Numbered from the stretch's first letter, positions 1,457-17,672 are shown. The stretch is 18,704 nt of DNA from Nitrospinae bacterium RIFCSPLOWO2_12_FULL_45_22 (GCA_001803565.1 MHDQ01000224.1:1-18704), one strand, 5' to 3'. Numbers and translations: made by a program. The notes: generated by a model not told the origin, from the sequence alone.

Positions 1457-2677
1457 TTAAGCAGATTTGCTGTAAATAAAATAATCCATTAATTCATAGC
1501 CGTGGGGGAAATGGAGAGAGCCTTCGGTCAATAATGATTCATCAAACCTAGTGGTCCTATCAGCCTTGCCCTTAGGGGAGAAGATAGCAAAAGGGACGGC
1601 TCCGTGGGTATGGGTTTTAAGGGCCACCGGAGTAAGGTGGTCAGTGGTCAGTAAGATTTTATACTCATCAAATTCCTGCATAGCAGATAGGATCGGGCCG
1701 ACTACTTTGCTATCAAAATCCTCCAGGGCCTGGACTTTCTTTTTCCAGTTCCCTTCATGGCTCGCCTCATCTGGCGCCTCAACATGGAGGAAGACAAAAT
1801 CTCTCGTTTTCAGGGCTTCTATGGCATATTGGGCCTTACCGCTATAGTTAGTATCCAGGTAGCCCGTTGCCCCGGGTACTTCTATAACATCTAATCCTAA
1901 ATAAATCCCCAGTCCTTTTAGCAGGTCTACTGCCGATATTATAGCCCCGTTTAGATTATACTTCTCGTGAAACCGGGGCAATTTTGGTGGAGTACCCGCA
2001 CCCCAAAACCAGATATTATTAGCTGGCTTTAAGCCCCGCTCCACTCTCTGACGGTTAATAGGGTGGTTCGCGAGGATAGGCCTGGCATTCCCCATTAGTT
2101 GTAGTAACATATCCTGACCATTACCGCAAGGTAGATACTGGGCAATATCTTGCCCGGAAATATCGTGAGGGGGGACCAGGTTTAATTTCTTTAAGTTTAT
2201 CACTGTTGCGCCATCTTGCCAAATCAGTAGATTACGGTAGCTAGTCCCAGGATAAAACCGGCGGCCCTCGACAGCCAGGGTTCGGTTCAAATCCTCTATC
2301 AGGCCCCGGGCCTCCTGGCTAGTGATGTGTCCCGCACTAAAATCTGCCATGTTATAACTGGCACCATTAGGTTCTAAGGTAACTAGATTACAGCGGAAGG
2401 AAATATCATCCGGGCTCAGTTGTACTCCAATACTGGCGGCTTCTAAGGGGGATCGGCCAGTATAGTATAAGGCAGGATCATAGCCCAAAAGGCTCAGGTT
2501 AGCTACATCGCTACCCGCGGGATAATTTTCCGGAATAGTATGGGTTGAGCCCGTAATACCCCTTCTGGCCAGATCATCCAGGAAAGGGGTAGAGGCTACT
2601 TCTAATGGCGTTTTACTCCCCAGGGCTGCTATGGGCCAGTCTGCCATCCCATCTCCCACTAAGACTAAGTACTTCAT
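1457..2677 (-). CDS. apgM: ApgM-family phosphoglycerate mutase homologue, probable homoserine kinase
   Basis: This is a 406-residue protein of the archaeal-type cofactor-independent phosphoglycerate mutase family (alkaline phosphatase superfamily). Visible metal and active-site motifs are VGDGMAD (7-13), the nucleophile region AGSDVANLSLLGYDP (Ser56), HVEAPDEASH (298-307), TTDH (344-347) and the HTHG histidines near 356-358. The ATG overlaps the hom stop by four bases (ATGA), so it is translationally coupled to homoserine dehydrogenase. No classical homoserine kinase (ThrB, GHMP family) is in the window. Homologues next to hom have been proposed by comparative genomics to be functional analogues of homoserine kinase, and as I recall mutant-fitness work in Bacteroides and Desulfovibrio supports this. 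Context therefore favours homoserine phosphorylation. The glycolytic mutase role remains possible. Confidence 0.9.
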   Translation of the reverse strand: MKYLVLVGDGMADWPIAALGSKTPLEVASTPFLDDLARRGITGSTHTIPENYPAGSDVANLSLLGYDPALYYTGRSPLEAASIGVQLSPDDISFRCNLVTLEPNGASYNMADFSAGHITSQEARGLIEDLNRTLAVEGRRFYPGTSYRNLLIWQDGATVINLKKLNLVPPHDISGQDIAQYLPCGNGQDMLLQLMGNARPILANHPINRQRVERGLKPANNIWFWGAGTPPKLPRFHEKYNLNGAIISAVDLLKGLGIYLGLDVIEVPGATGYLDTNYSGKAQYAIEALKTRDFVFLHVEAPDEASHEGNWKKKVQALEDFDSKVVGPILSAMQEFDEYKILLTTDHLTPVALKTHTHGAVPFAIFSPKGKADRTTRFDESLLTEGSLHFPHGYELMDYFIYSKSA

Positions 2678-4008
2678 GAAATGTCTCTTTCTGCCCGAAT
2701 AAGGGTGGTTCTGGCCAGGACTACTTCTAGTTGATCAATCTTTTTTAAGGCCAGTTGAATATCCTTTTCTAATGCCTCATGGGTCATCATAACTACTGGT
2801 ACCCCTTCTTTTGGCTCACGATCTTTTTGCAGTACAGAGGCAATACTGATAGAATGATCCCCCAGGATGCCTGAAATACGAGCCAAAACCCCAGGCTGGT
2901 CTACTGCCATGAACCGTAAATAATATTCTGACCTTATCTCTCCTATTTTTCTTATCGGGCAATCCGCTATCAGGGGGTTCAGAACCCCTAGAGCTGGTAC
3001 TCTACCCCCTTGTCCCCGGAGGATATTCCTACTAACCTCAATAATATCCCCTACTACAGCGCTGCCGGTAGGCATAGCTCCGGCGCCCTCACCTACAAAC
3101 ATGTTCTTACCCACAGCATCTCCCACAATATAGAGGGCATTCAAGATATTGTCAACATTGGCCAGGGGAGTTTCCTGGGGAAGTAGGGTAGGATGAACCC
3201 GAATATCAATCTCTTCTCCTACTCTTTTCGCAATGGCCAATAGTTTTATCCGGTAACCCAGATGCCGGGCATATTGAATATCCAGGGGGGATATTGCGGC
3301 AATGCCCTCAGTATAGACTCTGCTCAGTGGAATATTAGCACCAAAGGCCAAAGAGGCTAGTATGGTTATTTTATGGGCAGAATCAATCCCCTCAATGTCT
3401 AATGAAGGGTCCTGCTCAGCATATCCTTTCCGCTGGGCCTCTTCCAATACCTGAGTAAAATCCCCTCCTTCATTGGTCATCTTACTCAGGATATAGTTAG
3501 CGGTACCGTTAACTATACCATAGATAGCCTCAATATTGTTCGCCGCAAACCCTTCTCTGATAGCCCTAATAATGGGTATACCACCGCCGACACTGGCCTC
3601 AAACCCTACATCCAGCGAGGCATGGCTGGCCTTTTGGAAAATCTCGTGGCCATAATGGGCCAGGAGGGCTTTATTGGCAGTAACTACATGCTTCCCCTTA
3701 TCCAGGGCCCTCAGGATAAAGGTTTTCGCTGGTTCTAATCCACCAATCAACTCTACGGCTATATCTATCTCGGGATCATCTATTACTTTATAGGCATCAG
3801 TAGTTAATAGATCCTTATTCAAGGAAGGTATCCCCCGATCGCTATCCAGGTCAAGGTCGGCAATCCTCTTTATCTCTAGTGGTACCCCCAGCCGCTTTTT
3901 TATGAGCTGGTTATTCCGGGTAAGGATTTTATATGCCCCAGTACCTACTGTACCTAAGCCGATAATACCAATATATATAGGCCGGTTGAAGGTCTCTACC
4001 TGGTTCAT
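2674..4008 (-). CDS. hom: Homoserine dehydrogenase with C-terminal ACT domain
   Basis: This enzyme reduces aspartate 4-semialdehyde to homoserine with NAD(P)H, the branch point to threonine and methionine. The 444 residues show an N-terminal Rossmann motif [14 protein letters not shown], the [17 protein letters not shown] segment, the catalytic-domain motifs [12 protein letters not shown] and [14 protein letters not shown], and [24 protein letters not shown], which holds the conserved Asp and Lys used in hydride transfer. A C-terminal ACT domain begins near [20 protein letters not shown] and probably gives threonine feedback control. The start overlaps the aminotransferase stop and the stop overlaps the apgM start, each by four bases, so the three genes are tightly coupled. 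Length is typical of the ACT-containing form. The frame is intact. Confidence 0.97.
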
Positions 4009-5180
4009 AAGGCCGCCTTAATACCTCTTATGGCCTGCCGGGTGCGATGTTCATTTTCTACCAAGGCAAACCTTACATAACCCTCTCCATTCTCACCAAA
4101 GCCTATTCCAGGAGAGACGGCTACCTTGGCTTCTTTCAATAAAAATTTAGCAAATTCTAATGAGCCCATTTTCTTGTATGGCGCCGGTATCTCAGCCCAA
4201 AGGAACATGGTAGCTTTGGGTTTCTCTACCGGCCAGCCTACCCGGTTCAATCCCTCTACTAAGACATCCCTCCGGGCCTGGTAGGTATTTCTTATTTCTT
4301 CTACCATTTCCCTGGGACTATTTAGGGCGATTATACTGGCTACCTGAATAGGCTGGAATATCCCATAGTCTAAATAGCTCTTAAGCCTCCTTAGGGCCGT
4401 GATTATCTGGCCATTGCCCACAGCAAACCCTACCCGCCATCCCGGCATGTTATAACTCTTGGAGAGGGTAAAAAATTCTACCCCTACTTCTTTTGCCCCT
4501 TTAACTTCCAGCATACTGGGGGCCTTATAGTTGTCAAATACTAAATCTGCATAGGCAAAGTCATGGATTACTATTATGCGGTTTTCCTGGGCAAAGGCGA
4601 TGATCTTTTCAAAAAAATCCAGATCAACACATGTTGTAGTGGGATTATGGGGGAAGTTTAAGATTATGGCTTTAGGTCTAGGCCAAAGGGCCTTAAAAAC
4701 TCGCAGCATATTCTCCAAAAAATCCTCACCCTGGTTCAGAGGCACTTGTACTACATCACCATTGGCTATAATGATCCCATACGTATGGATGGGGTAAGTA
4801 GGGGAGGGTACCATTACCAGATCGCCAGGGCCAACCAGGGCGAGAGCCAAATGCGAGATACCTTCTTTAGAACCAATAGTCACAATAGCCTCGGTTTCCG
4901 GGTCGAGCTCCACCTGGTAATTCCGCATATACCAATCAACAATGGCCTGGCGTAGCTTGCTGATACCACGCGAGGCAGAGTAGCGGTGGTTATGGGATTT
5001 CTGGGCAGCCTCACAAATCTTAGCAATTATATGGGGTGGGGGGGGCTGGTCAGGATTGCCCATACCAAAATCTATTATATCATCCCCCCGTCTTCGAGCC
5101 TCTAGCTTTAATTCATCTATGATGCTGAAAATATAGGGTGGTAATCTTTTTATCCGGGGGAATTCCCAAAAACCTTCCAT
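4005..5180 (-). CDS. alaC: AlaC-like alanine/aspartate-family aminotransferase
   Basis: This is a PLP-dependent fold-type I aminotransferase of 391 residues. It resembles E. coli AlaC (glutamate-pyruvate aminotransferase) along its whole length, including the N-terminal RLPPYIF segment, DFGMGNPD (37-44), TIGSKEG (101-107), NFPHNPT (175-181), HDFAYAD (206-212, Asp207 contacting the PLP ring nitrogen), the Schiff-base Lys241 in [15 protein letters not shown], and the substrate-carboxylate Arg in GYVRFAL. AGGAG lies six bases before the ATG. It is followed by hom with a four-base overlap. The position suggests it may supply aspartate, or alanine and glutamate interconversion, for the aspartate pathway. 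A role as a diaminopimelate or methionine-related transaminase cannot be excluded from sequence alone. Confidence 0.9.
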
Positions 5181-5203: not shown

Positions 5204-5262
5204 AAAGAGTAAGGAGTGAGAGGGTAAGGAGAATTTTTTTACCCCTTACCCCTCACGCTTTT
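5204..5262. repeat. Imperfect inverted repeat between metF and the aminotransferase gene
   Basis: Two purine/pyrimidine-rich arms, 5211-5229 (containing GTGAGAGGGTAAGG) and 5244-5261 (containing CCTTACCCCTCACG), are near-complementary around an A/T-rich loop with seven Ts. The hairpin is followed by TTTTT only in plus-strand orientation, whereas the genes on both sides are read on the minus strand, so it is not their intrinsic terminator. It looks like one of the small dispersed GTAAGG/GTGAGG-type repeats that I recall from intergenic regions of diverse anaerobes. It fills nearly the whole 81-base gap. Confidence 0.65.
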
Positions 5263-6158
5263 TATATACCTGCTTGTTCAAAAAGTTCAGGAAGCTCTCG
5301 CTCTAACCCAATAGGCATTATATGAAACCCGCTCACATAGCTCTTTATTTTTGCCATAAGCTCGGCTGCAATAGTGATTCCTTCTCTAACAGGGTCTTTA
5401 GCCTTATTAATCCGCTCAGCAACCGCCATTGGTATAGGCTTGACCAGTATCTTATGGTTCATAAACTCTACCATCCGGGCAGATTTCAAAGGAGTTATCC
5501 CGATAAGGAAGCGTACATTAAGACCAGAAGTCATTTCCAGGAACTTCTCTAGTGGTTCCTGGTCAAATATAGGCTGGGTTTGAATAAATTCTATTCCCGC
5601 AGCGACTTTTTTCCGCAGTTTTATCAATTGAGGCTCTAGGGGTTCAGCCAGGGGGTTAGCCACTGCCCCGATAACAAAGCTAGGGACACCGCTCAGTTTA
5701 CGGCCAGCAAAATCTTCTCCCCTCTCCAGTCCCCTGGCCAGGCTTATAAGCTGGACAGAGTCACAATCATAAACGGGCTTGCCGGTAGGGTGATCACCTA
5801 ACAGGGGATGGTCCCCGGTCATAAAGCAAAAATTTTCTATCCCTAAGGCATATGCACTAAGGAGTTCTGATTGCAAGGCCAAGCGGTTTCGGTCTCGACA
5901 GGTCAACTGTAAGATCGGCTCAAGGCCCCGCTCTTTTAAGAGATGACTAAGGGCTAACGGGCTCATTCGCATTATGGCCCGCTGATTATCGGTTACATTA
6001 AAAGCATCAACTTTCTCCCTTAGTAGATCGGCATGCAGGAGAATTTCTTCGGTGGCCGTACCTTTAGGTGGGGATAATTCTACTGTCACTATCAGATCTT
6101 TTTCTCTTAATTTATTTCTGAATCGGCCTTTGGGGCCTTCTGGGTCGCCTACCGTCAC
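5262..6158 (-). CDS. metF: Methylenetetrahydrofolate reductase (MetF)
   Basis: This enzyme reduces 5,10-methylene-tetrahydrofolate to 5-methyl-tetrahydrofolate at an FAD-bearing TIM barrel. The 298 residues include the N-terminal ELSPPKG motif with the conserved Glu, the NVTDNQRAIMRMS segment typical of the MetV-partnered forms, LTCRDRNRLALQSELLSAYALGIENFCFMTGD (folate/FAD region; Asp in TGDHP), and AAGIEFIQTQPIFD. The start is GTG and overlaps the metV stop (GTGA), so synthesis is coupled to MetV. Pairing with MetV is characteristic of acetogens and other bacteria using the reductive acetyl-CoA pathway, where the MetVF complex does not use NAD(P)H directly in all species. Here it may also serve methionine synthesis, given the downstream hom and lysC. 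Confidence 0.95.
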   Translation of the reverse strand: MTVGDPEGPKGRFRNKLREKDLIVTVELSPPKGTATEEILLHADLLREKVDAFNVTDNQRAIMRMSPLALSHLLKERGLEPILQLTCRDRNRLALQSELLSAYALGIENFCFMTGDHPLLGDHPTGKPVYDCDSVQLISLARGLERGEDFAGRKLSGVPSFVIGAVANPLAEPLEPQLIKLRKKVAAGIEFIQTQPIFDQEPLEKFLEMTSGLNVRFLIGITPLKSARMVEFMNHKILVKPIPMAVAERINKAKDPVREGITIAAELMAKIKSYVSGFHIMPIGLERELPELFEQAGI

Positions 6159-6820
6159 TTCTTCTTGAGCATCTCCCTCCCTAAAGTGATCTTCTGGGGA
6201 TGTTGGCCTTTAGAAAAGTCTTGAGGTTGATGGATCATTTCCATAAGGTACAATTTCCCTCTCTGCTTTAATCTTTCATAAATAAGATACCAACCGCAGT
6301 CCCGATCATCTATTATTTCACACTTACCCTGCTTAGAACCACCGCAGGGGCCGTTAAGGAGCCCTTTGGAGCACTGATTTATAGCGCATATACCTCCGGT
6401 ATACTCCAGGATACACTGTCCACAGAGAGCGCAGAGCTCTTCATAATGGCCTACCCGCCTCAAAGAACCGATAAATAGGGTATCCAATGCCGGAAAGACA
6501 GGTTTTTCTGTTAGTTCCGCTACCGTTTGAACCCCTACTCCGCAGGACATTACCAATATAGCATCCGCTTCTTCTATAAAGGTGCTCTTCTTCGTTAACT
6601 CTTTCTTGGTTTTTTGGGTGGTACAGACCGATTCCAGGACGAAGGATAAGGGTACTGCCTTGCCCACTCCTTCTAGCTCCCGCTTCATATCCTGAACCTC
6701 TTCTTCTCCTCCGGCATGGCATTGGGTGGCACAGGTACCACACCCGATAATGACCACTACATCTGACCCGTCCAGGGATTGAAGAATATCAGGCAATAGT
6801 TTTTGCTGAGATATGATCAT
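6155..6820 (-). CDS. metV: MetV-type Fe-S partner of methylenetetrahydrofolate reductase
   Basis: This 221-residue protein is of the family that matches the 'methylenetetrahydrofolate reductase C-terminal' zinc/iron-sulfur domain. It is Cys-rich: C27, C30 and C34 in GCGTCATQCHAGG, C66, C93 in SCGVG, C130/C133/C136 in CALCGQC, then C145, C150, C159, C167 and C175. In Moorella and Acetobacterium MetV binds metal clusters, is needed for MetF activity, and links MetF to electron donors. The GTGA overlap with metF fits a stable heteromer. The ATG lacks a recognisable ribosome binding site because an A/T heptamer repeat occupies the upstream spacer. In Moorella the MetVF complex associates with Hdr-like proteins; an Hdr-like gene is also present in this operon, though six genes upstream. 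Confidence 0.93.
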   Translation of the reverse strand: MIISQQKLLPDILQSLDGSDVVVIIGCGTCATQCHAGGEEEVQDMKRELEGVGKAVPLSFVLESVCTTQKTKKELTKKSTFIEEADAILVMSCGVGVQTVAELTEKPVFPALDTLFIGSLRRVGHYEELCALCGQCILEYTGGICAINQCSKGLLNGPCGGSKQGKCEIIDDRDCGWYLIYERLKQRGKLYLMEMIHQPQDFSKGQHPQKITLGREMLKKK

Positions 6821-6821
6821 T

Positions 6822-6862
6822 TGTTATCAGTTATTAGTTATAGGTTATAAGTTATAAGTTAA
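6822..6862 (-). repeat. A/T-rich heptamer tandem repeat ahead of metV
   Basis: On the minus strand this stretch reads as five to six imperfect copies of a seven-base unit TATAACT (variants TATAACC, AATAACT, GATAAC). It fills the 43-base gap between the GXGXG gene and metV and ends two to three bases before the metV ATG. No Shine-Dalgarno sequence is left in the spacer. Repeats of this kind (runs of GTTATAAGTTATA) are, from memory, common in intergenic regions of several unrelated bacteria. Confidence 0.7.
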
Positions 6863-6863
6863 T

Positions 6864-7613
6864 TTAGTAGGCATATAGTCTACCATAGGGCCGGTGAGAG
6901 ACAGGGACAAGTTTTATGAATGGACGGCTCATACTTTCATTATAATCCAAATTAAAATCCTCACAGTACTCCCGGAGCAAAGGTTCTATAAGTTTATGGT
7001 CTTGAGGGCCTATTTCCTGGATACCTACTTCGGCGCCTAATTGATGCTTTTCTACCTTACCCCGGACAAATATCTGACCTCCGTGCATACCCGTGCCCAG
7101 ATAATTACCTACTATGGATTGATTATTTGGGCAGGTCAATCCTAAAAGGATCAATATCCCACCCGCCATATATTCTCCAAAGAAGTCCACGGCCTTACCT
7201 CCTACAATAATTACCGGGACCTGGTCTTTATAGGACTTCATATGGATTCCTACCCGGTAGCCTACATTACCTTTTATAAATACTTTACCGCCCCGCATCC
7301 CGTAACCTATCACATCACCGGCATCACCATGGATAATCACCTTGCCATCATTCATGGTATTACCTACACCATCCTGGGCATTGGCGTTAACAATAACGGT
7401 GGGGCCGTCCATAAAGGCCGAGAGATCATTACCCGGGACACCGTCAATAATTATCATCACTTTTTGCTTTATGCCATCGGCTATATAGCGCTGTCCGTTT
7501 ACCCCGATCAACTCTATCTCCTGTTCGCCAGCGGCTATAGCCTCTCTGATCATCCGGTTTAATTCCCGGTAATAGATACCACTAGCATTGATTTTCGCCC
7601 TGCCATTCTTCAT
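6864..7613 (-). CDS. Glutamate synthase C-terminal GXGXG domain protein
   Basis: This is a stand-alone 249-residue version of the right-handed beta-helix domain that ends the large subunit of bacterial glutamate synthase and is also found in formylmethanofuran dehydrogenase subunit C. Repeated GXGXG-type turns are visible: NAQDGVGNTMNDGKVIIHG, GDVIGYGMRGGKVFIKG, FGEYMAGGILILLG and NYLGTGMHGGQIFVRG. In glutamate synthase this domain is structural and helps bridge the amidotransferase and FMN domains. The start lies three bases after the stop of the preceding FMN-domain gene. Homologous separate proteins occur in archaeal-type glutamate synthases and in N-methylglutamate synthase (MgsB), so the exact product depends on its partners. 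No frame damage is seen. Confidence 0.9.
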   Translation of the reverse strand: MKNGRAKINASGIYYRELNRMIREAIAAGEQEIELIGVNGQRYIADGIKQKVMIIIDGVPGNDLSAFMDGPTVIVNANAQDGVGNTMNDGKVIIHGDAGDVIGYGMRGGKVFIKGNVGYRVGIHMKSYKDQVPVIIVGGKAVDFFGEYMAGGILILLGLTCPNNQSIVGNYLGTGMHGGQIFVRGKVEKHQLGAEVGIQEIGPQDHKLIEPLLREYCEDFNLDYNESMSRPFIKLVPVSHRPYGRLYAY

Positions 7614-7616
7614 TTT

Positions 7617-9191
7617 TTAACCTAATATCTTATCAACCTCTTCTTTATCAAGCTCGGATATATAGGGTATTCCTGATATAGCTGCCGCCTCTTGCGTAAG
7701 GGCAACTAGATCATCCCGCTTAATATAAGCCGAAGCAAATTTTCTGGCACCACACATAAACTGCTGAAGACCTTGGGCCAGCCTCTGGAAATATGTATAC
7801 ACCCCAATAGCTGCCGGAGGAATCCTATTGAAATCCTTACCAAACCTCTTTTTTAGCTCTACACTGGTGATGAATATTTCATCTACATCCTTTCCATATT
7901 TCTCTAAGGAACTAGGTATGTTTTCATCGAAAATTAATCTACCCAAGGTTTTCCCCACCATAGCCGCAGCTATAGGGGCTCGGGCCATTCCTACCGCCTT
8001 GACAAAAGGTGCCCCCAGGGCCAAGGCCTTAAATATATGATCTTCTAAGGTAATCCCACCCGCTATCACTATATGAGGGACATATTTCCCTTTATCTGCC
8101 AATCTCTGGGCATATTGATAAGCCAGGCACTCGATTGCTACTGTAGGTATACCCCATTCATTCATCATTCTCCAGGGGCTCATTCCGGTCCCCCCACCAG
8201 CGCCATCTATTGTCAAGACATCTATCCTCGCATCGGAGGAATATTTGATGGCCCTCGCCAAATCTACCGGGCGATAAGCCCCGGTCTTCAGGGAGATAAA
8301 TTTAGCCCCGAGGCTCCTAAGCTCCTCTACCCTTTTAGAGAAATCCTCTTCATTAACCATTCCGACACGAGAATGCCTCTCAAATTCCTTAAAGGTCCCC
8401 TTCTGAAAAGCATCTAGCACTTCTGGGTCGTCTGGGTCAGGAAATACTATATAACCACGAGATTTTAGTAGTTGGGCCTTTTTAGGGTCCGAAATTTTTA
8501 CCTCCCCGCCAATAGTCTTTGCCCCCTGCCCCCATTTAAGCTCTACTGCCTCAACTCCAAGCTGCTCTATGGCATACTCTTGCACCCTCATTCTACTATC
8601 TTCTACATTGGATTGTACTACTATAGCCCCATAACCGTCCTGCCATTCTTGATATTGCCTGACCCTTCTTTCCAGGTCGGGTGATTGGACAACCCTACCA
8701 TTCTTTATTTTAGCCTCTTCGTCCATTCCACAGACATTTTCGCCTATAGTCAAAATTATACCAGAAACAGCCGCCCCTATGGCTAGCCCTTCCCAATTTC
8801 TCTTAGCCACATCAGTGGACCCTAATCCTGGGATTAGGATAGGGAGTTTGCATTTAATACCCCTCTTTTGACCGAGGGAGACCTCCAGTTTTACCTTAGG
8901 GAAAATAGCCTGGTCGCTATCAGCCTCTACCCCTTCGGCCCCAACCGTGGTTCCTAGGATATTGAAATGCGAATAATCAATAGGGTAATCCTTCTGTGCC
9001 CCAGAAGTGGTTGGTCCAAAGGGTTGCGGGTAGATTATTTCCGCACCTCGATAAGCAGACCTGCCGATCTCACAGAGGCCTATACACCCCTCTATACAGG
9101 TCACGCACATACCACTAAAAGGAGAAACCTCTCTGTCGGTCCTTAGTTTTGTCATGGTAGCGGCTGATGAATTTGGCTTAGATAACGTCAT
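7617..9191 (-). CDS. Divergent FMN-binding glutamate synthase domain protein
   Basis: This is an FMN-dependent TIM-barrel protein of the glutamate synthase central/FMN domain family, 524 residues from the ATG at 9191, which is preceded by a near-perfect AAAGGAGG. An upstream in-frame TTG at 9209 overlaps that site and is less likely. Family motifs include a GPTTSGAQKDYPIDYSHFNI segment, WGQGAKTIGG (about 220-229), DGAGGGTGMSPWRMM (about 330-344), and VIAGGI. Unlike the paralogue just upstream it lacks the cluster cysteines after the barrel (the region reads MARAPIAAAMVGKTLG) and has no ferredoxin domain. It instead has an N-terminal Cys motif, CVTCIEGCIGLC (C29, C32, C36, C40), that could hold an Fe-S cluster. 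Function beyond the family is unknown; it may be a regulatory or alternative-substrate partner. Confidence 0.88.
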   Translation of the reverse strand: MTLSKPNSSAATMTKLRTDREVSPFSGMCVTCIEGCIGLCEIGRSAYRGAEIIYPQPFGPTTSGAQKDYPIDYSHFNILGTTVGAEGVEADSDQAIFPKVKLEVSLGQKRGIKCKLPILIPGLGSTDVAKRNWEGLAIGAAVSGIILTIGENVCGMDEEAKIKNGRVVQSPDLERRVRQYQEWQDGYGAIVVQSNVEDSRMRVQEYAIEQLGVEAVELKWGQGAKTIGGEVKISDPKKAQLLKSRGYIVFPDPDDPEVLDAFQKGTFKEFERHSRVGMVNEEDFSKRVEELRSLGAKFISLKTGAYRPVDLARAIKYSSDARIDVLTIDGAGGGTGMSPWRMMNEWGIPTVAIECLAYQYAQRLADKGKYVPHIVIAGGITLEDHIFKALALGAPFVKAVGMARAPIAAAMVGKTLGRLIFDENIPSSLEKYGKDVDEIFITSVELKKRFGKDFNRIPPAAIGVYTYFQRLAQGLQQFMCGARKFASAYIKRDDLVALTQEAAAISGIPYISELDKEEVDKILG

Positions 9192-9247
9192 TGCTTCCTC
9201 CTTTCCCAAAGGGTTTTAATCCCAATTTGGGTGGGAAAACTAAATCT

Positions 9248-10753
9248 TTAACGGCCTGCTGGTTTAATACCCATGATATCTAAGGTTAGGGCATCCAGCC
9301 CAATACCCCGCAGTCTCTCCCTGCTGCCCCGGAGACTCTCAATAGCATTTACCCCTAGAGAACCCAGGATTTCTTTAAGCTCTGAGCTCCAGGCATGTAA
9401 TAAATTCACCAGGCGCTGGGCCGCTACTTCAGGGTCAAGTCGTCGGGTCAATTCTGGCCGCTGGGTAGCTATACCCCAGGCACAATTGCCGGTATAGCAT
9501 TTCTGACACACCCGGCAGCCCATAGCAATTAGTGCCCCAGTACCAATAGCAACGGCATCTGCACCTAAGGCGATGGCCTTTGCTACATCGGCACTGGACC
9601 TTATGCTGCCCGCAGCTATTATCGAGGCCTGGTTACGGATCCCTTCCTGCCGCAGACGGTCATCTACCGCAGCTAGAGCCAACTCAATCGGTATCCCTAC
9701 ATGGTCCCGGATAATAGTAGGTGATGCCCCGGTACCTCCCCGGAAGCCATCCAGGTAGAGAATATCTGCCCCAGCCCGTACTATGCCACTGGCAATAGCG
9801 GCTACATTATGTACAGCAGCAATCTTTACTGATACAGGTTTATAATCAATAGCCTCTTTAATGGCATAGATAAGCTGCCGCAAATCTTCTATAGAATAGA
9901 TATCATGATGTGGTGCCGGAGATAAGGCATCTGTCCCCCGAGGGATCATCCGGGTCTTAGATATCTCTTCCCCAATCTTCTCACCCGGCAAATGGCCACC
10001 AATACCGGGCTTAGCCCCTTGCCCGATCTTGATCTCTACCCCTACACCGGCATTGAGATATTCGGCATGGACCCCGAAGCGACCCGAGGCGCACTGGACA
10101 ATGATATGATCTTTGTAGGGATACAAGTCTCGATGGAGGCCACCTTCGCCAGTCTCTAGCACGGTGCCAAATTCTGCGGCAGCTATAGCCATGGCCTTGT
10201 GGGCATTGAAACTCAATGCACCATAAGACATGGGGGCAAAGATAATAGGGGTTTCTATCGCTATCTGGGGAGGCATCTTGGTCTTAAGCCGCAATGTGCC
10301 ATCTGCCCCGGTGTCAAATTCTAAGAAATCCGGTTTACTGCCCAGAAAGGTCTTGAGCTCCATAGGTTCTCGCAAGGGGTCAATAGATGGGTTAGTAACC
10401 TGGCAGGCATCTAAGACCAAACAATCCCAGATGATAGGATAAGGCAACTCATTGCCCATACCCGTCAAGAGGACACCGCCCGTCTCGGCCTGTTTCCAGA
10501 TATTCTTACGCAATTGGGGCGACCAGTTATGGCTATATTTGAACCCTAAAGGATTAGCCTCTACGGAGATAGCCCCTTCAGGACAGAAGGTAAGGCAGCG
10601 ATGGCAGGCCACGCATTGTTCGTGGAGAGGGGTTACCCGATCTTTAAACTCCAAGGCCCCGAAGCTACAATTTAGTAAACACCGCTTGCAGCGCCGGCAC
10701 TTTTCGTGATCTACTTCTACAATAAATTCTGCTGGGATATAGCTCCGTACCAA
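9248..10753 (-). CDS. Archaeal-type glutamate synthase: 2x[4Fe-4S] ferredoxin plus FMN domain
   Basis: This is the probable catalytic subunit that reductively aminates 2-oxoglutarate using ammonia from the neighbouring amidotransferase. Its 501 residues start with two complete CxxCxxCxxxC ferredoxin motifs (C19/22/25/29 and C47/50/53/57), followed by the FMN barrel with PMSYGALS, ETGEGG, IKIGQGAKPGIGGHLPG (242-257), DGFRGGTGASP (335-345) and AAGSIR. A third Cys group, GCRVCQKCYTGNC (C413/416/419/424), lies where the [3Fe-4S] site of standard GltB is found and precedes the conserved GIATQRPEL. The start is TTG, supported by AGGAGG nine bases upstream. No GltD-like flavoprotein is present, so reduced ferredoxin or an Fe-S partner is the likely electron donor. 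Confidence 0.92.
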   Translation of the reverse strand: MVRSYIPAEFIVEVDHEKCRRCKRCLLNCSFGALEFKDRVTPLHEQCVACHRCLTFCPEGAISVEANPLGFKYSHNWSPQLRKNIWKQAETGGVLLTGMGNELPYPIIWDCLVLDACQVTNPSIDPLREPMELKTFLGSKPDFLEFDTGADGTLRLKTKMPPQIAIETPIIFAPMSYGALSFNAHKAMAIAAAEFGTVLETGEGGLHRDLYPYKDHIIVQCASGRFGVHAEYLNAGVGVEIKIGQGAKPGIGGHLPGEKIGEEISKTRMIPRGTDALSPAPHHDIYSIEDLRQLIYAIKEAIDYKPVSVKIAAVHNVAAIASGIVRAGADILYLDGFRGGTGASPTIIRDHVGIPIELALAAVDDRLRQEGIRNQASIIAAGSIRSSADVAKAIALGADAVAIGTGALIAMGCRVCQKCYTGNCAWGIATQRPELTRRLDPEVAAQRLVNLLHAWSSELKEILGSLGVNAIESLRGSRERLRGIGLDALTLDIMGIKPAGR

Positions 10754-10766
10754 TCTTTCTCGCCTC

Positions 10767-11936
10767 CTACAATCTCAGAGATGCCCCTTCAGAGATAGAC
10801 GCTAACTCCGCTGTTATTCCCGTTCCTTCCTCTTCCAGCCAGGCTATAACTGGGTAGCCGGCCCGGGGAGACCATACCCGCTCTGGGTTAGAGCAAATCT
10901 CTCTTATAGCCGATTCTTCACTAGCCATATAAAGGAGGGGACCCTTTTCAGCCGCAACTAATGGCCTTAATTTAATCCTATCATTGAGACCTACCAATCC
11001 TTTACTATGGGCAAAGAGGATAGCAAACGGGCCATTAACCAGGGCACTACCATACACCATCCGCAGGCTCTTAAGGGCCATCTTCTCCTCCTCGGGTAAT
11101 CGCTCGATATCCTTCCAAAAAGGTGCTGCCAGGGCCATACATGCTGTTTCTATTGATAGATGGTGCTTCCTTATAAGTAAATCAAAGAGATAGGCCATGA
11201 CCTCGGTATCGGTCATTAATGTACAGCGGTAGCCAAACATCTCTAGATATCTTTTATTAATACCATAGGAAGATATTTCACCATTATGGACAATAGACCA
11301 GTCCAGCAGAGTGAAGGGATGAGCCCCGCCCCACCAGCCCGGGGTATTAGTAGGAAACCGATTATGCCCGGTCCAGATATAGGCTTCATATTCATTAATC
11401 CCGTAAAACTCGGCAATATCCTTCGGAAAACCAACCCCTTTGAAGGCCCCCATATTCTTCCCGCTAGAAAATACATAGGCACCATTCTCTTCCACGTTTA
11501 TCTTCATTACTGTCCGAACCACAAAGTCATCATCGGAGAGCTCGGCCACTTCCCTATCAGGCCGGTCCTTTTTCGGCCTAACAAAATAGCGCCGCAGCCG
11601 GGGGTGAAAGACAATCGAGCTCACATGATAATGAGGTATCCGCTCTATCTTGGCAACTTCATAATTCTCTCTAATAAATCTTTCCACGCCTTCTATATCA
11701 GCCCTTTCGCCATACATGATATGGAAGGCATAGTAGTCCTTATATTCCGGATAGATACCATAGGCAGCAAAACCTGACCCTAGCCCATTACCCCGGTCAT
11801 TCATCAGATTTATAGATTTGACTATCTCTGAACCTGGAATAAGCTTTCTCTGGCGATGGATTATCCCCGCAAGGCCACAACCACTAATGTCTTTTTGATA
11901 GTTATAATCTGGTCTCGGATTATTTTTTAGCCACAA
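10767..11936 (-). CDS. Class II glutamine amidotransferase (glutamate synthase N-terminal domain)
   Basis: This 389-residue Ntn-type amidotransferase corresponds to the first domain of glutamate synthase and hydrolyses glutamine to supply ammonia. The nucleophile is Cys20 in SGCGLAGIIH. A 19-residue leader precedes it, and no in-frame start allows a mature N-terminal Cys, so self-processing of a propeptide is implied, as in GltB. Further motifs are TGHNRFPTNTPG (189-200), VHNGEISSYG (216-225), and LMTDTEVMAYL (240-250). The start is TTG with AAAGGAG about 10 bases upstream, and it overlaps the end of the Hdr-like gene by 17 bases. Separate GATase proteins of this kind also occur in N-methylglutamate synthase (MgsA), so the acceptor product is inferred from the neighbours rather than from this protein. 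Confidence 0.92.
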   Translation of the reverse strand: MWLKNNPRPDYNYQKDISGCGLAGIIHRQRKLIPGSEIVKSINLMNDRGNGLGSGFAAYGIYPEYKDYYAFHIMYGERADIEGVERFIRENYEVAKIERIPHYHVSSIVFHPRLRRYFVRPKKDRPDREVAELSDDDFVVRTVMKINVEENGAYVFSSGKNMGAFKGVGFPKDIAEFYGINEYEAYIWTGHNRFPTNTPGWWGGAHPFTLLDWSIVHNGEISSYGINKRYLEMFGYRCTLMTDTEVMAYLFDLLIRKHHLSIETACMALAAPFWKDIERLPEEEKMALKSLRMVYGSALVNGPFAILFAHSKGLVGLNDRIKLRPLVAAEKGPLLYMASEESAIREICSNPERVWSPRAGYPVIAWLEEEGTGITAELASISEGASLRL

Positions 11937-13242
11937 TCTTTTTCCACTCCTTTACCCCACTTGCTGGTGGTTCTGGTAGATTTAGTTTTTTCCGCTGGGT
12001 CTTTTGTGGTTCGCCTAGCTTACCACTCTTCTCAAAAGTCTCGATGGCCTGCTTGACCGTAGCGGGTATTAAACCCTTAGTCATAGCCATACCTTTCAAG
12101 GTAGTGAAGACGGTTTCCATACCGTATCTTTGGGGGCATAGCTCATAGCAGGTATGACACTCCAGACAGTGCCATATATCCTGCCGGTTTAAGAGTTCTT
12201 CTACCTTTCCTTCTAGTATCTTTTCCATGATTTGATCGGGCTGGAAATCAGGAAAATTCAAGCAACCAGGGCAATCATCCAGGCAGGCCCGGCATTGATA
12301 ACAACGCTCCAGGGACTCTAAATCAAACCCCTCCTCAATCTTCTTTATTCTTTCCGACTGAGCATGGCGGCGCTCGTAAAAAGGTTGTGTATCTATCCTA
12401 TGGAAGGCAAGGCCGATCTCATCCGGCATGATACCGTATGCCAGGCAGACCAGCTCGGGATAAAAGAATATTGGTATAGCCATATCCTCGCCCTGGCGTT
12501 GCATCATGTACTGCTTATTATCGAATTGCATAAAGCAGGCAGGGCACATAACCACGAGAGCATCTATATCCAGGCTTTTTATCTCCAGGAGTTTTTCCCG
12601 GGCCATAATTAATGCCTCTTCCATACTGCCAACATTGCTATACTCACCACCGCAGCATTGCATCTTCCTGGGATATTCGATACTCCTCGCCCCCAGCGCT
12701 GTTACCAGGGCATCGAACTTTTGCGGCAAGAGGGGGTCGTCAAACTGGATGGCATAGCTGGGCCGGATCATGTGGCAGCCATAATGTACCGCTATCTGCA
12801 TCCCTGATAAAGGCTCAATGATACCTTCCTTTAGTTTAGCCAGGCCTATCTTGTCATGAAGATATTCTGCCAGGTGCATTACCGTAATCCGGCCTTGATA
12901 CTCTAACCCATAGGTTTCCAATTTCCGATTTATTTCATCCTTAAGAGAAAGATTTAAAATTAGAGATGTCTTTACCGTCTTCAAGGTGCTATAGCAGCCA
13001 TTACAAGGCTCAATGAGCACTTCTACTCCAGCATCTTCGGCTACAGCCAGGTTCCTGGCTGCAGTCAGGTACCATACCTTTGGGTCCAGGTTTTTGACCA
13101 GGGCCTTTTCCGGGCAGCAAGTAAACCCTGGAATATCTTCTACTTTAATGCCCAGTTGCTTCATGAGGAGCCGGACTGACTTCTCCATAAAGGGGAATCG
13201 AGCCGGTATTTGACAACCCCAGAAAAAAGTCACTGATTCCAT
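11920..13242 (-). CDS. HdrB-HdrC-like fusion protein (heterodisulfide reductase family)
   Basis: This 440-residue iron-sulfur protein has an HdrB-like N-terminal half with two complete CCG motifs that fit the family spacing CX31-39CCX35-36CXXC: C10/C42-C43/C80-C83 and C156/C196-C197/C233-C236. The C-terminal part is HdrC-like with two CxxCxxCxxxCP ferredoxin motifs (C314/317/320/324 and C359/362/365/369). In methanogens HdrB carries the non-cubane clusters that reduce the CoM-S-S-CoB disulfide and HdrC feeds it electrons. The family is used far more widely as an electron-transfer module. No HdrA or hydrogenase gene is in the window. The order B then C is the reverse of HdrD. The protein is soluble with no membrane helices. 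I see no clear Shine-Dalgarno before the ATG. It leads the operon. Confidence 0.9.
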   Translation of the reverse strand: MESVTFFWGCQIPARFPFMEKSVRLLMKQLGIKVEDIPGFTCCPEKALVKNLDPKVWYLTAARNLAVAEDAGVEVLIEPCNGCYSTLKTVKTSLILNLSLKDEINRKLETYGLEYQGRITVMHLAEYLHDKIGLAKLKEGIIEPLSGMQIAVHYGCHMIRPSYAIQFDDPLLPQKFDALVTALGARSIEYPRKMQCCGGEYSNVGSMEEALIMAREKLLEIKSLDIDALVVMCPACFMQFDNKQYMMQRQGEDMAIPIFFYPELVCLAYGIMPDEIGLAFHRIDTQPFYERRHAQSERIKKIEEGFDLESLERCYQCRACLDDCPGCLNFPDFQPDQIMEKILEGKVEELLNRQDIWHCLECHTCYELCPQRYGMETVFTTLKGMAMTKGLIPATVKQAIETFEKSGKLGEPQKTQRKKLNLPEPPASGVKEWKKIVAKK

Positions 13243-13568
13243 AATGCGTTATTTATATTCGTGATATAATTAAGTAGTATTTAGGACGCAGATTCACGCA
13301 GATAACTCTTTTTATGAGTTGTGTGTTGCAGAGTTTAGTCCATAATCTGCTACGCATGATCCATAACTCGATAGCAGAGGAATTTATAATCTTAAAAATC
13401 TGCCGTCATCTGCGTCCAAAAAGGAAATTGCTATGCTATTAAATTACACTTTGCTTTGTTCCGTAGGAATTTGGCAACAGAGCCCAAACTTTCAATTATA
13501 TTAATCAAAACCTGATTGTCAACTGCTTTCTGCCAAATTTGTTGAAGGGAACAAAAATTTTTTATGTT
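13243..13568. other. Divergent intergenic region between the Hdr-like gene and smpB
   Basis: No coding sequence is credible here. It contains the imperfect inverted-repeat element at 13284-13417 and a second, exact 9-base inverted repeat, AATTTGGCA at 13468-13476 and TGCCAAATT at 13531-13539, just ahead of smpB. A possible but weak plus-strand promoter is TTGGCA (13471-13476) with AATTAT 17 bases downstream. On the minus strand the region before 13242 is very A/T-rich (13243-13275) and could hold a -10 element, but I see no convincing -35 match. Confidence 0.5.
13284..13417. repeat. MITE-like element with GGACGCAGAT inverted ends
   Basis: The 19-base ends, 13284-13302 (GGACGCAGATTCACGCAGA) and 13399-13417, are complementary at 15 of 19 positions, including the outer ten. 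Inside are further short inverted pairs, AACTC/GAGTT around a TTTTTAT loop near 13304-13320 and CTGCTA/TAGCAG near 13347-13377. The structure could fold as a branched hairpin. CGCAGAT-type repeats of this form are, from memory, scattered in many environmental bacterial genomes. No transposase is present, so any movement would need an enzyme encoded elsewhere. Confidence 0.65.
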
Positions 13569-14024
13569 ATGACTCAGAAGACGGTTTGTCAAAATCGGAA
13601 GGCCTGGCATGACTATGAGGTACAGGACACTTACGAAGCAGGGCTGGTGTTGCAGGGCAGCGAAGTAAAGTCCCTTCGTGAGGGTTGGGGGAACCTGAGA
13701 GATAGCTATGCTAGACTAAAGGGTGGTGAAGTCTATCTGTATAATTTCCATATCAGCCCCTATCCCCAGGCCGGTCAATTCAACCATGATCCCCTACGGC
13801 CCCGAAAGCTCTTGCTACACAAACGAGAGATCAAGAAACTTGTGGGAAAAACCACTGAGAAAGGTCTTACGCTAGTACCTTTAAGGGTATATTTTTCTCG
13901 GGGTCTGGCTAAGGTAGAGCTGGCCTTAGCCAAGGGTAAAAAAGTTTATGATAAGCGTGAAGAACTAAAACGCCGTTCAGCCAAAATGGAGTTAGAAAGA
14001 AGTCTCCGGGAAAAGCAAAAATAG
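13569..14024 (+). CDS. smpB: SsrA-binding protein SmpB
   Basis: SmpB binds tmRNA and delivers it to stalled ribosomes for trans-translation. The sequence after the ATG at 13569 gives a 151-residue protein of standard length, with [32 protein letters not shown] near the N-terminus, [37 protein letters not shown] and the basic C-terminal tail rich in Lys/Arg that enters the mRNA channel. An in-frame TTG at 13539 would add ten residues absent from the family and lacks a ribosome binding site, so ATG 13569 is preferred. The GAAGGGA motif is somewhat far (18 bases) from this ATG. It lies just upstream of the tmRNA gene it serves. Confidence 0.95.
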
Positions 14025-14073
14025 TTTGCTAAACAAAGGAAAGAGTGTTAAACTATTATTTAGTCTGCATTCT

Positions 14074-14438
14074 GGGGGCGAAATGGGTTCGACGGGGATA
14101 GTTGAGGCTGAGGTGGCATGCCGAGGTCCCGTTAGCTCGTAAAACAAATGGGAAATAAAATAAACGCAAACTCTTATGAGTATGCCTTAGCTGCTTAATC
14201 GCAGCTAACGTCCTCTCAACTCTCGCCCGTGGGGTTGAGAAGGGCGCCGACTAGCGGGCCTGGTTCCTTTCTTTTTGCCTGGAGGAGAAAGGGATAAGAA
14301 CTAATCCGGGCTAGCACCTTAAATCCATCCCTGTCTGTGGGGATCGGAGGGTGTGAAGAGCTTAAACACAGAATAAGCATGTAGAGGCCTCGAGCCAAAG
14401 GTTTCCGGACGCGGGTTCGATTCCCGCCGCCTCCACCA
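14074..14438 (+). ncRNA. ssrA: Transfer-messenger RNA (tmRNA, SsrA), one-piece
   Basis: This is a complete 365-base tmRNA ending in an encoded CCA. The 5' end GGGGGCG pairs with CGCCTCC at 14428-14434 to form the acceptor stem, including a G3-U70 wobble at the position that specifies alanine. The conserved 5' element GAAATGGGTTCGACGGGGAT follows the start. Near the 3' end the T arm is visible as GCGGG-TTCGATT-CCCGC (14411-14427). Between them lie the tag reading frame and pseudoknot-type complementary segments. It begins 49 bases after smpB and may be co-transcribed with it; a possible -10 (TATTAT, 14054-14059) lies in the gap but lacks a good -35. Confidence 0.97.
14166..14198 (+). other. 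tmRNA proteolysis-tag reading frame
   Basis: The resume codon GCA at 14166 opens a ten-codon frame encoding ANSYEYALAA, followed by TAA. With the alanine brought by the tmRNA the tag is AANSYEYALAA. The hydrophobic YALAA end is the classic signal for ClpXP-type proteases. The frame has the same length as the E. coli tag (AANDENYALAA) and differs in its middle. Confidence 0.92.
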
Positions 14439-14574: not shown

Positions 14575-15245
14575 TACATAGTGGGTATACGGGTCAATTC
14601 CCCGGTCAAAGTATCTAGCAGATAATATTCTTGCTTGAATTCGGCCAGGGAGATGACCCGTACCTCATGGTTATAAATTATTTCCTTATAGAGATGGGTA
14701 TGACCACAAAACATAAACTGTGGCTCTATCTCATCTAATAACCACCGCAAGGGCTTATCACCCATATCCTGCCCTCGCCACTCAAAACCCAAGCCCCAGG
14801 GGCAGCCGTGAGCCAGAAAAATATCCAGCCCTTTCAAGCCACGACAGGCCTCCAGGTCTTCTTTTACAAAGTATCCCTTCTGCCATTCTTCCGTGAGCTG
14901 ATCCTTGAGGAGGGGGTAGAGAAAAGGGTCATAAGCCCCATTGAGGCCCGACAGCCTTATCATCTCGCTCCCTTTCTGAAAAGTGAGGATCTCGCCGGTC
15001 TTAATAGGGATGAGGTTATTCAGGCTACCCTCTCCTCTTTCGATTTTCTGGATCACTGCCACAGAATCATTATTTCCATAGATCCAATGTATAGGTTGAG
15101 CATGGGAGGTGTAATAACACATATCCCCTACCTGGAGGATAATGTCTACTTCGAGGGAGCCAACTACCTCATGAAAGACCTGGATAGCAGAAGAGCGGCC
15201 ATGCTCGAAAAAACCGTGAATATCACCAAATAGGGCGATTATCAT
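14574..15245 (-). CDS. Calcineurin-like metallophosphoesterase
   Basis: This 223-residue protein has the full set of metallophosphoesterase metal-binding motifs: GDIHG (7-11; Asp8, His10), QVGD (38-41; Asp41), YGNND (56-60; Asn58), AHG (145-147; His146) and GHTH (181-184; His182, His184). These bind a dinuclear metal centre that hydrolyses phosphomonoesters or phosphodiesters. An LNGAYDP segment (101-107) resembles larger members of the superfamily rather than short YfcE-type proteins. The ATG overlaps the stop of the CoA-transferase gene by four bases, so the two are translationally coupled, but no biochemical link between them is obvious. The substrate is unknown. Confidence 0.87.
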   Translation of the reverse strand: MIIALFGDIHGFFEHGRSSAIQVFHEVVGSLEVDIILQVGDMCYYTSHAQPIHWIYGNNDSVAVIQKIERGEGSLNNLIPIKTGEILTFQKGSEMIRLSGLNGAYDPFLYPLLKDQLTEEWQKGYFVKEDLEACRGLKGLDIFLAHGCPWGLGFEWRGQDMGDKPLRWLLDEIEPQFMFCGHTHLYKEIIYNHEVRVISLAEFKQEYYLLDTLTGELTRIPTM

Positions 15246-17644
15246 ATTGCTCCGGCAGCCTTAAGTTCTTGGACTTTAGCAACACTTAAGCCTACTAATG
15301 CCTGCAGGATTTCCTCGTTATCCTGGCCCAACCCCGGACCCAACCTCCTTATGCAGCCGGGGCTCAGGGAGAACCTGGGTACAATACCTTGCATCTTGAC
15401 CTTCCCCAGCACGGGGTCTTCTACCTCTACTATGCTGCCCCGGGCCTGGTAATGGGGGTCTTCAAAGGCATCCTTTACACTATAGACTAAGCTGGCTGGG
15501 ACCTGGTTTTGCCACAATAACTGGATTAAGTCTTTGGTAGTATAGTTACTAAAGATAGAGATTATTATCTCATTCAGGGCTTTGCAATTTGCTACCCGGT
15601 GGACGATAGTGGTGAATCTAGGGTCCTGGGCTAGCTCCTTCCTGCCCACGGCTTCTGCAAACCGGGCAAAGTCTCTATCCTCTACCAGGAGCATAGCTAT
15701 CCAACCACCATCACCTACCGGGAAGACCACCTGGATACCGGCATTGCCAGTTATATTAAGTACCGGGCCTAGTCGCTCCTTTACCAGTCCGAGTTTATGG
15801 TAAGCGGGGATGTTATCATGGGCGAAGCGTAAAAATGGGCTATACATAGCCAGGTCTATCCATTGGCCTTCACCTTTATGGTCCCGATGATACAGGGCGG
15901 CCAGGATAGCAATAGCGCCAAATATCCCGGTAATATAAGCCCCGATAGAGACGCTAGGTTTGGAAGGAGGGCCATCCGGTGAGCCAGTAAGGGCCTGGAA
16001 ACCACCTATAGCTGCTGCTGTAGGCTCATAGGCCAGCCGGTGGGCATAAGGGCCTTCCTGACCAAAACCGGTTACCCGGAGCAAGATTATCTTCGAGTTA
16101 GCTTTCACCAACTCATCATAACCTAAGCCCCACTTTTCTAAGGTACCGGGCCGAAAACCATCCACCACTACATCTGACACGGCTACCAGCTTTTTAAAGA
16201 CCTCCTGGGCTTCAGGGTATCTCAGGTTAAGGGTAATGGAGCACTTATTCCTGGCATCTACCGCCCACCATAAGGAGGTGCCATTATAAAACGGTGGCAG
16301 GTGCCTCACGATATCCCCTACACCTGGATCTTCAACTTTTATTACCTCACTGCCAAAGTCTGCCAGGAGCGTACAGCTAAAGCCACCGGCTAAGCCCTGT
16401 CCTAACTCTATTATCCTTAGTCCTCCTAGCGGAGGGTTGGCTTGAACGGTGCTGGTCGCTTTGATAGAGCCCGGGACAGCTTTGGGCTTCAGCTCAGCAA
16501 GGAGGGAATTATGCTCCCCGAGCTTTGGACCTCCATCCCTTATCCGGCCCGGGGTCTTAGAGAACCTGGAGGCTACCTCTGGTACCATAACTCTTCCTAA
16601 CTCGCAATCTTCAATCTCGATCAGGTCTTGTCTGGCCTTTATATGTGGATCATCAAAGATATCCTTGATATTGTATACCGGAGAGAAGGGGATATTGACC
16701 TTTTCCAGGATGGGGATAATCTCATGAGCCCGATAAGATTTTACCCAGCCTTCTACTATCCCGTTTATTGCTTCACTGTTTTCTGCCCTGGTCCGTATAT
16801 TTTTAAACCGTGGGTCAGCTTGTAAGTCCTTGGATCCGATATCTTTAGCCATAACTCTGGCTAATTTAGCAAAATTTTTGTCATCCCCGGCTGAGATGGT
16901 TATCCACTTACCATCTCTGGTTCGATAAGTATCAGAGGGGGCAAAGCTGGGGTGACGGTTACCACTCCGCTGCCTTACGGTCCCTAGCTTATCATAAGCT
17001 GCTACAGAAAATTCCATGAAACGGAAGAACCCTTCATATTGGGCTATATCAGCACATTGACCCTGGCCGGTCTTCCTCCGGTAATACTCGGCAATGAGGG
17101 CTGCCAGGGCATTGAAGGCCCCTGAGGTATAATCACAGTAGGCCATTCCGATGGGCAATGGTGGACCATCCGGGGAGCCAGTCAGATGGATCATCCCACC
17201 CATAGCCGACCCAATAGCATCATAAGAGGTCCGCCGACTATATGGCCCCTCCTGGCCAAAGCCACTTACCCGGACAAAAATAACCTTCTCATTGACCTTC
17301 TTCATATCTTCGTAACCCAGATTCCAGCGCTCAAAGGTCCCGGGCCGATAATTTTCTGAAACAATATCATATTCTTTGAGCAACTCTTTTATTATCCTCT
17401 GCCCTTCCTCAGTCCGCATATCTAATGCAATAGATTTTTTATTCCGCATATCTATGGGTTTCCATAAAGATACCCCCTGATGTAAGGGTGGGATACGCCG
17501 GATCAGAGTACCCATTTCCGGCATCTCTACCTTGATCACCTCTGCCCCTAGCTCAGCCAGCAGAGTTGGTCCCACTGGCCCGGCAGCCGCTACGCCTAGA
17601 TCTAATACCTTCAATCCTTGCAATGGCCCCTGACATTCTTTCAT
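15242..17644 (-). CDS. Tandem-domain class III CoA-transferase (CaiB/BaiF family)
   Basis: This 800-residue protein is made of two complete class III CoA-transferase domains (about 5-385 and 405-795) joined by a short linker. Each has the family's DLG/ELG-G start, EVIKVE, the NYRPGT or GFRPGT segment, RVSGFGQEGPY or RVTGFGQEGPY, and HLTGSPDGPP or ALTGSPDGPP. Normal family members are about 400 residues and work as interlocked dimers, so a fusion can act as an intramolecular pair. The expected catalytic Asp is present in the first domain (Asp171, in AYCDYTSG) but is Ala569 in the second (SIGAYITG). The start at 17644 is chosen because AGGAGG is seven bases before it; the ATG at 17650 is only one base from that site. 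The substrate acid is unknown. Confidence 0.9.
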   Translation of the reverse strand: MKECQGPLQGLKVLDLGVAAAGPVGPTLLAELGAEVIKVEMPEMGTLIRRIPPLHQGVSLWKPIDMRNKKSIALDMRTEEGQRIIKELLKEYDIVSENYRPGTFERWNLGYEDMKKVNEKVIFVRVSGFGQEGPYSRRTSYDAIGSAMGGMIHLTGSPDGPPLPIGMAYCDYTSGAFNALAALIAEYYRRKTGQGQCADIAQYEGFFRFMEFSVAAYDKLGTVRQRSGNRHPSFAPSDTYRTRDGKWITISAGDDKNFAKLARVMAKDIGSKDLQADPRFKNIRTRAENSEAINGIVEGWVKSYRAHEIIPILEKVNIPFSPVYNIKDIFDDPHIKARQDLIEIEDCELGRVMVPEVASRFSKTPGRIRDGGPKLGEHNSLLAELKPKAVPGSIKATSTVQANPPLGGLRIIELGQGLAGGFSCTLLADFGSEVIKVEDPGVGDIVRHLPPFYNGTSLWWAVDARNKCSITLNLRYPEAQEVFKKLVAVSDVVVDGFRPGTLEKWGLGYDELVKANSKIILLRVTGFGQEGPYAHRLAYEPTAAAIGGFQALTGSPDGPPSKPSVSIGAYITGIFGAIAILAALYHRDHKGEGQWIDLAMYSPFLRFAHDNIPAYHKLGLVKERLGPVLNITGNAGIQVVFPVGDGGWIAMLLVEDRDFARFAEAVGRKELAQDPRFTTIVHRVANCKALNEIIISIFSNYTTKDLIQLLWQNQVPASLVYSVKDAFEDPHYQARGSIVEVEDPVLGKVKMQGIVPRFSLSPGCIRRLGPGLGQDNEEILQALVGLSVAKVQELKAAGAI

Positions 17645-17672
17645 CTCCATACCTCCTACCCAAGTTGTTAAA

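Follow-up and report, generated by a model that had tools for sequence, protein, structure and literature searches.

Glutamate synthase is a major route by which ammonia nitrogen enters biomass, at an energetic cost that depends on the electron donor; NAD(P)H, ferredoxin and F420H2 are the donors known so far. The nearest concept to the locus described here, among the papers found, is the F420-dependent glutamate synthase of methanogens and ANME (MTH193; PMC3087415, PMC9012536), which is likewise of the split, archaeal type with a clip-on input module encoded alongside. Its module is FrhB-type and reads F420H2, whereas the candidate module studied here is a fusion of HdrB-like and HdrC-like halves (HdrBC). 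Closer relatives are sister operons (L045, L085, L103) that share the glutamine amidotransferase (GAT), FMN (FMN1) and GXGXG (GXG) subunits as well as the operon logic, with FMN1 proteins that are 61-66% identical. Their input module, an FeS protein with a Pyr_redox_2 protein, is in contrast NAD(P)H-type and is never found with HdrBC.

In thiol:fumarate reductase (TfrAB), an HdrB-type domain draws on two thiols to supply a flavoprotein reductase with electrons. HdrBC would likewise collect thiol electrons for such a reductase, but the acceptor of TfrAB is fumarate, and its donors CoM-SH and CoB-SH are not expected in most bacteria. With the HdrB and HdrC subunits of HdrABC-MvhAGD (5odc), HdrBC shares the HdrB fold, the cluster cysteines and the dicluster domain of HdrC; it differs in being fused in B-C order, in forming its own clade, in having no HdrA alongside and in its apparent partner, a glutamate synthase. 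The HdrABC-MvhD-MetVF system of Moorella (PMC5736913, PMC6085437) likewise has metVF clustered with the gene of an Hdr-type protein, but the present unit lacks HdrA and MvhD and has four glutamate synthase-type genes between HdrBC and metVF.

The preliminary description of this DNA had supposed that an Hdr-linked glutamate synthase would be new, and in full-text searches that covered few subscription papers no description of such a link was found. Seven papers mention both glutamate synthase and Hdr (PMC9012536, PMC12054007, PMC3087415, PMC5736913, PMC7325909, PMC6085437, PMC2702500), and the passages of them that were found draw no HdrBC-glutamate synthase connection. A Desulfobacterium protein called an 'HdrL heterodisulfide reductase/glutamate synthase fusion' was considered as a precedent and set aside, as it is grouped with HdrA-type proteins and mvhD, and its glutamate synthase portion was taken to be GltD-like.

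Gene content and layout of the locus

The window, meaning the whole stretch analysed, is an entire contig of 18,704 nucleotides from Nitrospinae bacterium RIFCSPLOWO2_12_FULL_45_22, a MAG that is 85% complete. Domain and family scans identified a seven-gene run on the minus strand at 5262-13242, in the order HdrBC, GAT, FMN1, FMN2, GXG, metV and metF, with successive gaps of -17, 13, 38, 3, 43 and -4 nt, the first being a 17-nt overlap of GAT with hdrBC. Seven adjacent genes without a promoter-sized gap had been proposed before, and all seven were recovered; the proposed range of 6155-13242 began too late and omitted nearly all of metF.

The first gene (11920-13242, minus strand) encodes the 440-aa HdrBC fusion, in which domain scan, alignment and fold place two HdrB-type CCG domains ahead of two HdrC-type [4Fe-4S] sites. 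It is followed on the same strand by a stand-alone class II glutamine amidotransferase subunit of 389 aa with a TTG start (GAT, 10767-11936, domain scan) and by FMN1 (9248-10753, 501 aa), which joins a two-[4Fe-4S] ferredoxin domain to an FMN glutamate synthase domain (domain scan, alignment). FMN2 (7617-9209, minus strand, 530 aa) is a divergent Glu_synthase-family protein by domain scan, alignment and predicted structure. The 249-aa GXG (6864-7613, minus strand, domain scan) is the GXGXG structural subunit of glutamate synthase and the sole GXGXG match in this genome. Also on the minus strand, metV (6155-6820, 221 aa, domain scan, a DUF5981 protein) adjoins metF (5262-6158, 298 aa, an MTHFR by domain and family scan), the gene pair of a MetVF-type methylene-THF reductase; this MetV is likewise the only match in the genome.

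The unit is longer than seven genes. Past metF, still on the minus strand, it runs on through an AlaC-like class I/II aminotransferase (4005-5180, gap 81 nt), a homoserine dehydrogenase, hom (2674-4008, gap -4 nt; both by domain and family scan), and an apgM-type protein proposed to be a homoserine kinase (1457-2677, gap -4 nt; TIGR02535 above cut-off). An aspartate kinase identified by family scan (ask, 78-1322, minus strand), which lies after a 134-nt gap, probably belongs to the unit as well. Upstream, a 12/12 match to a sigma-70-type promoter, TTGACA-16-TATAAT, stands at 13495-13522 on the minus strand, about 250 bp ahead of HdrBC, and is a consensus match only. Terminator-like matches in the window occurred at chance level. 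Against Rfam the leader of the unit gave no riboswitch, its sole match being the neighbouring tmRNA.

Other features of the window were recorded in passing. The leader between promoter match and hdrBC contains, at 13280-13421, a 24-nt inverted repeat that is 79% complementary and has GACGCAGAT-type words, with no Rfam match. Divergent from the operon, at 13539-14438, are an smpB-like gene and then a tmRNA gene (tag ANSYEYALAA), and at 15242-17650 an 802-aa protein carries two CaiB-type CoA-transferase domains in tandem fusion.

GATase, FMN and GXGXG subunits are thus encoded by separate genes in one operon, as in archaeal-type split glutamate synthases. The Glu_synthase domain of FMN1 is full-length (E 1e-139), and the protein has the N-terminal two-cluster ferredoxin and C-terminal cysteine motif of this enzyme type, with Cys 19, 22, 25, 29, 47, 50, 53 and 57 and Cys 413, 416, 419 and 424 invariant in the alignment. 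A GltBD enzyme would have GltD, or another NAD(P)H-FAD subunit in that role, encoded next to its large-subunit genes; no such protein is among the window proteins scanned, and neither is an FrhB-type domain, the mark of the F420-dependent type. Nor is there an HdrA partner, as in HdrABC, or an HdrA or MvhD clustered with MetVF, as in Moorella; the earlier remark that no gltD and no HdrA are visible was correct. The core of HdrBC, GAT, FMN1 and GXG is probably a split, archaeal-type glutamate synthase with a dedicated HdrBC electron input.

The HdrBC protein and its genomic company

The HdrB half of HdrBC has the sequence and the fold of HdrB (target TM-score 0.93 on 5odc), while likeness of the other half to HdrC is looser (TM about 0.6). 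Since HdrBC did not reach the equivalog cut-off of TIGR03288 (271.5 versus 345.15 bits), we regard it as a relative of HdrB and not as a proven HdrB; TfrB is a weak NCBIfam match. In a tree with 20 other HdrB proteins, the 31 HdrB sequences linked to glutamate synthase form one clade (SH-aLRT 93, and 99 for 30 of them). All 10 CCG cysteines and all 8 ferredoxin cysteines are invariant in every row of the linked HdrBC alignment that covers them. Both CCG motifs are therefore present with their bridging cysteines, on which Hdr catalysis depends according to the EtfD structure paper (PMC13083937). EtfD itself is a non-catalytic relay in which one motif cysteine is missing and a histidine ligand takes its place (PMC13083937). 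Because HdrBC has lost no cysteine and every row keeps the glycine G82 inside the first CxxC, its catalytic site looks intact and Hdr-type, and a dithiol/disulfide partner seems a better fit than a simple relay function.

An early look at other genomes had found HdrBC-GAT-FMN1-GXG in an unrelated genome (L046) and, elsewhere, FMN1 with an FeS protein, an FAD protein, GAT and GXG. The FMN1 alignment was searched against 84,980 species genomes, and the 80 closest loci were combined with eight locally found ones. Among these 88 loci, HdrBC occurs in 31 and the FeS and/or FAD protein in 38; 4 lack both despite enough flank, and 15 are cut. HdrBC and the FeS/FAD module were never found in one locus (0/88). 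The FAD protein is a Pyr_redox_2 protein whose best NCBIfam model, though below that model's cut-off, is an NADH-dependent phenylglyoxylate dehydrogenase subunit. On the FMN1 tree, a quick one with some uncertain placements, a single change separates the HdrBC state from the FeS/FAD state. The clade that contains the FMN1 of the window (SH-aLRT 98) has 35 rows, 28 with HdrBC, seven on cut contigs and none with the FAD module, from Nitrospinota, Schekmaniibacteriota, Bacillota, Nitrospirota, Methanobacteriota, Myxococcota and Actinomycetota. HdrBC loci from Armatimonadota (L083) and Borrarchaeota (L097) branch outside it. Three archaeal GAT-FMN1-GXG operons (L089, L096, L104) lack HdrBC as well as an NAD(P)H-type module and are presumably fed directly by ferredoxin.

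A separate sample of 386 genomes, drawn domain-wide, was used for the reverse comparison, with HdrBC of this type defined by a score above 420 bits (the next HdrB scored 335 bits). Thirteen genomes have such an HdrBC and 53 have FMN1, a co-occurrence with a Fisher p of 1.6e-10 when kinship is ignored. The HdrBC gene lies at glutamate synthase genes in 12 of the 13. In ten, a single contig carries HdrBC followed by GAT and, further downstream, FMN1, and in two the linkage is inferred across contig ends, the contig stopping directly past HdrBC or GAT and, in one of them, another contig opening with GAT-FMN1-GXG. The only exception is G033, where GAT does not adjoin HdrBC.

A neighbourhood survey of this kind had been named in advance as the check on an Hdr-linked glutamate synthase, and its outcome bears out that proposal: the pairing is conserved, and HdrBC occupies operons without the NAD(P)H-type module that their sisters have. 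Most such operons have no metVF. Two findings had been listed as counting against the link, namely no preferential association and a gltD partner elsewhere in the genome. Association with glutamate synthase genes proved strongly preferential, and the gene of this genome that most resembles gltD is an NfnA adjoining NfnB and not a GltD adjoining GltB. Judged by sequence and gene order, the association is old and specific and recurs across many bacterial and archaeal phyla.

Proposed electron input to the glutamate synthase

These comparisons point to HdrBC as the likely dedicated electron-input module of the glutamate synthase, standing in for the ferredoxin and NAD(P)H-type FAD protein of the sister operons. 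In the scheme we propose, HdrBC would dock on FMN1 to form a physical complex. The HdrB half would receive electrons at its pair of noncubane cluster sites, and the HdrC half would relay them through its two [4Fe-4S] clusters to the N-terminal ferredoxin of FMN1 and then to its FMN. GAT would free ammonia from glutamine, ammonia and 2-oxoglutarate would give an imine, and the FMN of FMN1 would reduce the imine. Several HdrBC operons have glnA or P-II genes as neighbours, which makes assimilation the likely direction. We tentatively suggest that the donor to HdrBC may be a small or protein-bound dithiol, oxidised to the disulfide, and not HdrA. Some observations sit less well with HdrBC as an input module: FMN1 has a ferredoxin domain of its own and the three archaeal operons do without either module, so that free ferredoxin could be enough; HdrBC is separated from GAT in G033; FMN2 has no role in the scheme; and the genomes without HdrA, discussed next, are MAGs.

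The preliminary description had instead pictured delivery of low-potential electrons, and HdrA, the bifurcating subunit, is the usual partner of HdrBC. HdrBC could be the distal part of a bifurcating Hdr complex in which HdrA with MvhD, encoded elsewhere, feeds HdrBC, one electron pair going to glutamate synthase (perhaps also MetVF) and the other to ferredoxin. Many genomes with the HdrBC-linked glutamate synthase do have HdrA, and in this genome HdrA and MvhD are present on another contig (C95). However, that HdrA has its own HdrC-B fusion beside it, and no HdrA-like gene was seen in the mapped operons with HdrBC and glutamate synthase, whose neighbours are partly annotated. Moreover, eight genomes with the linked HdrBC, all of them MAGs and seven of them actinobacterial, gave no HdrA match. 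Undetectable HdrA in these eight lends no support to low-potential electrons, the retained Hdr-type catalytic cysteines point rather to a dithiol, and we consider the bifurcating arrangement unlikely. Besides HdrA, MvhD and the HdrC-B fusion, the locus on C95 (L160, 3-6062) includes a second HdrA-MvhD fusion, whose reading frame contains a TGA that may encode selenocysteine.

HdrBC might also be no more than co-regulated, acting as a sensor of thiols and disulfides or as a disulfide reductase in its own right, with the glutamate synthase using free ferredoxin through FMN1. Free ferredoxin could suffice, because FMN1 has its own ferredoxin domain and operons with neither module exist. A bystander of this kind is improbable, since HdrBC and the NAD(P)H-type module strictly alternate within one operon family, co-inheritance is deep, and in the eight HdrA-negative genomes the linked HdrB is the sole HdrB-like match at E 1e-30 and always lies at glutamate synthase. 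Operation in reverse, with glutamate oxidised and HdrBC reducing a disulfide with the electrons, would suit both the classical role of HdrB as a disulfide reductase and the complete set of catalytic cysteines, yet the dedicated glutaminase subunit in the operon and the glnA or P-II neighbours indicate assimilation and make it very unlikely. That HdrBC serves MetVF as in the Moorella HdrABC-MvhD-MetVF system, with glutamate synthase a passenger, is highly improbable: metVF is in the same run here and adjoins GXG in two other loci (L050, G033), but the unit has no MvhD or HdrA, metV accompanies only this one of about 31 loci with HdrBC and glutamate synthase (L050 and G033 being cut upstream of FMN1), and in 11 other such genomes MetV lies elsewhere without HdrBC.

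MetVF and FMN2 in the unit

The earlier suggestion that the Hdr-like protein or the ferredoxin domains supply electrons to glutamate synthase, MetVF or both gains support as far as an Hdr link to glutamate synthase goes, given the alternation of modules, but gains none for MetVF in general, with none of the 11 other genomes showing a link; in these, mapped MetV genes lie with acs, folD, metH, GltD-like or other genes. MetVF is not a general partner of HdrBC. Proximity of metV to a split glutamate synthase was confined to the window, its same-order relative L050, G033 and, with a different gene layout, G025. The G025 locus (L034, contig C52, 8016-17477) lacks HdrBC and is a divergent glutamate synthase set, in which FMN2, metV, metF and FMN1 occur with a long GAT protein that matches GXGXG weakly.

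Purified MetVF of Clostridium ljungdahlii used reduced ferredoxin in vitro (PMC8760232). This genome has genes resembling an archaeal-type CODH/ACS (a PF03598 match, with the gene map judged by eye), and carbon fixation and methionine may therefore share its single MetVF. In this bacterial genome the CODH/ACS look-alike genes lie next to formylmethanofuran dehydrogenase-like pieces (L231, contig C157). The position of MetVF ahead of aspartate-family genes fits co-regulation.

FMN2 belongs to a widespread Glu_synthase-like family (loci L029-L033, L166-L169, L172-L175 and L179, and window 7617-9209) with an invariant CxxCxxxCxxxC near the N terminus. It has no NCBIfam match, its matches among PDB sequences are short and to designed TIM barrels only, and its predicted structure (pLDDT 65, moderate) indicates an FMN-type TIM barrel only. 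Since FMN2 lacks the HLPG...SPAPHHDIYS stretch present in FMN1, its substrate may differ from that of FMN1. The family occurs in 30 of 52 genomes examined, mostly away from glutamate synthase; among the genes next to it are glnA and an NrpR-type regulator (Pfam) and, by eye or similarity, NuoEF-like genes with a 2Fe-2S protein, or amidotransferase genes. It is near a split glutamate synthase in 6 of the 88 loci and lies directly upstream of HdrBC in G366, a proximity above the expectation of a rough chance model. MetVF and FMN2 are probably lineage-specific, co-regulated additions, and their co-transcription with the aspartate-family genes would balance the supply of nitrogen, one-carbon units and amino acids.

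The HdrBC-linked glutamate synthase suggests an undescribed way to power nitrogen assimilation, in which an Hdr-type module would add a class of donor to those known. A thiol-driven enzyme, for which a thiol pool and not NAD(P)H, ferredoxin or F420H2 would pay for glutamate in archaea and in bacteria of many phyla, is a possibility that we hold with some reserve. An Hdr-type module would also connect the assimilation of nitrogen with thiol chemistry across many uncultured anaerobes, and it would give a function to HdrBC fusions otherwise read as methanogen-type heterodisulfide reductase, also in genomes with no detectable HdrA.
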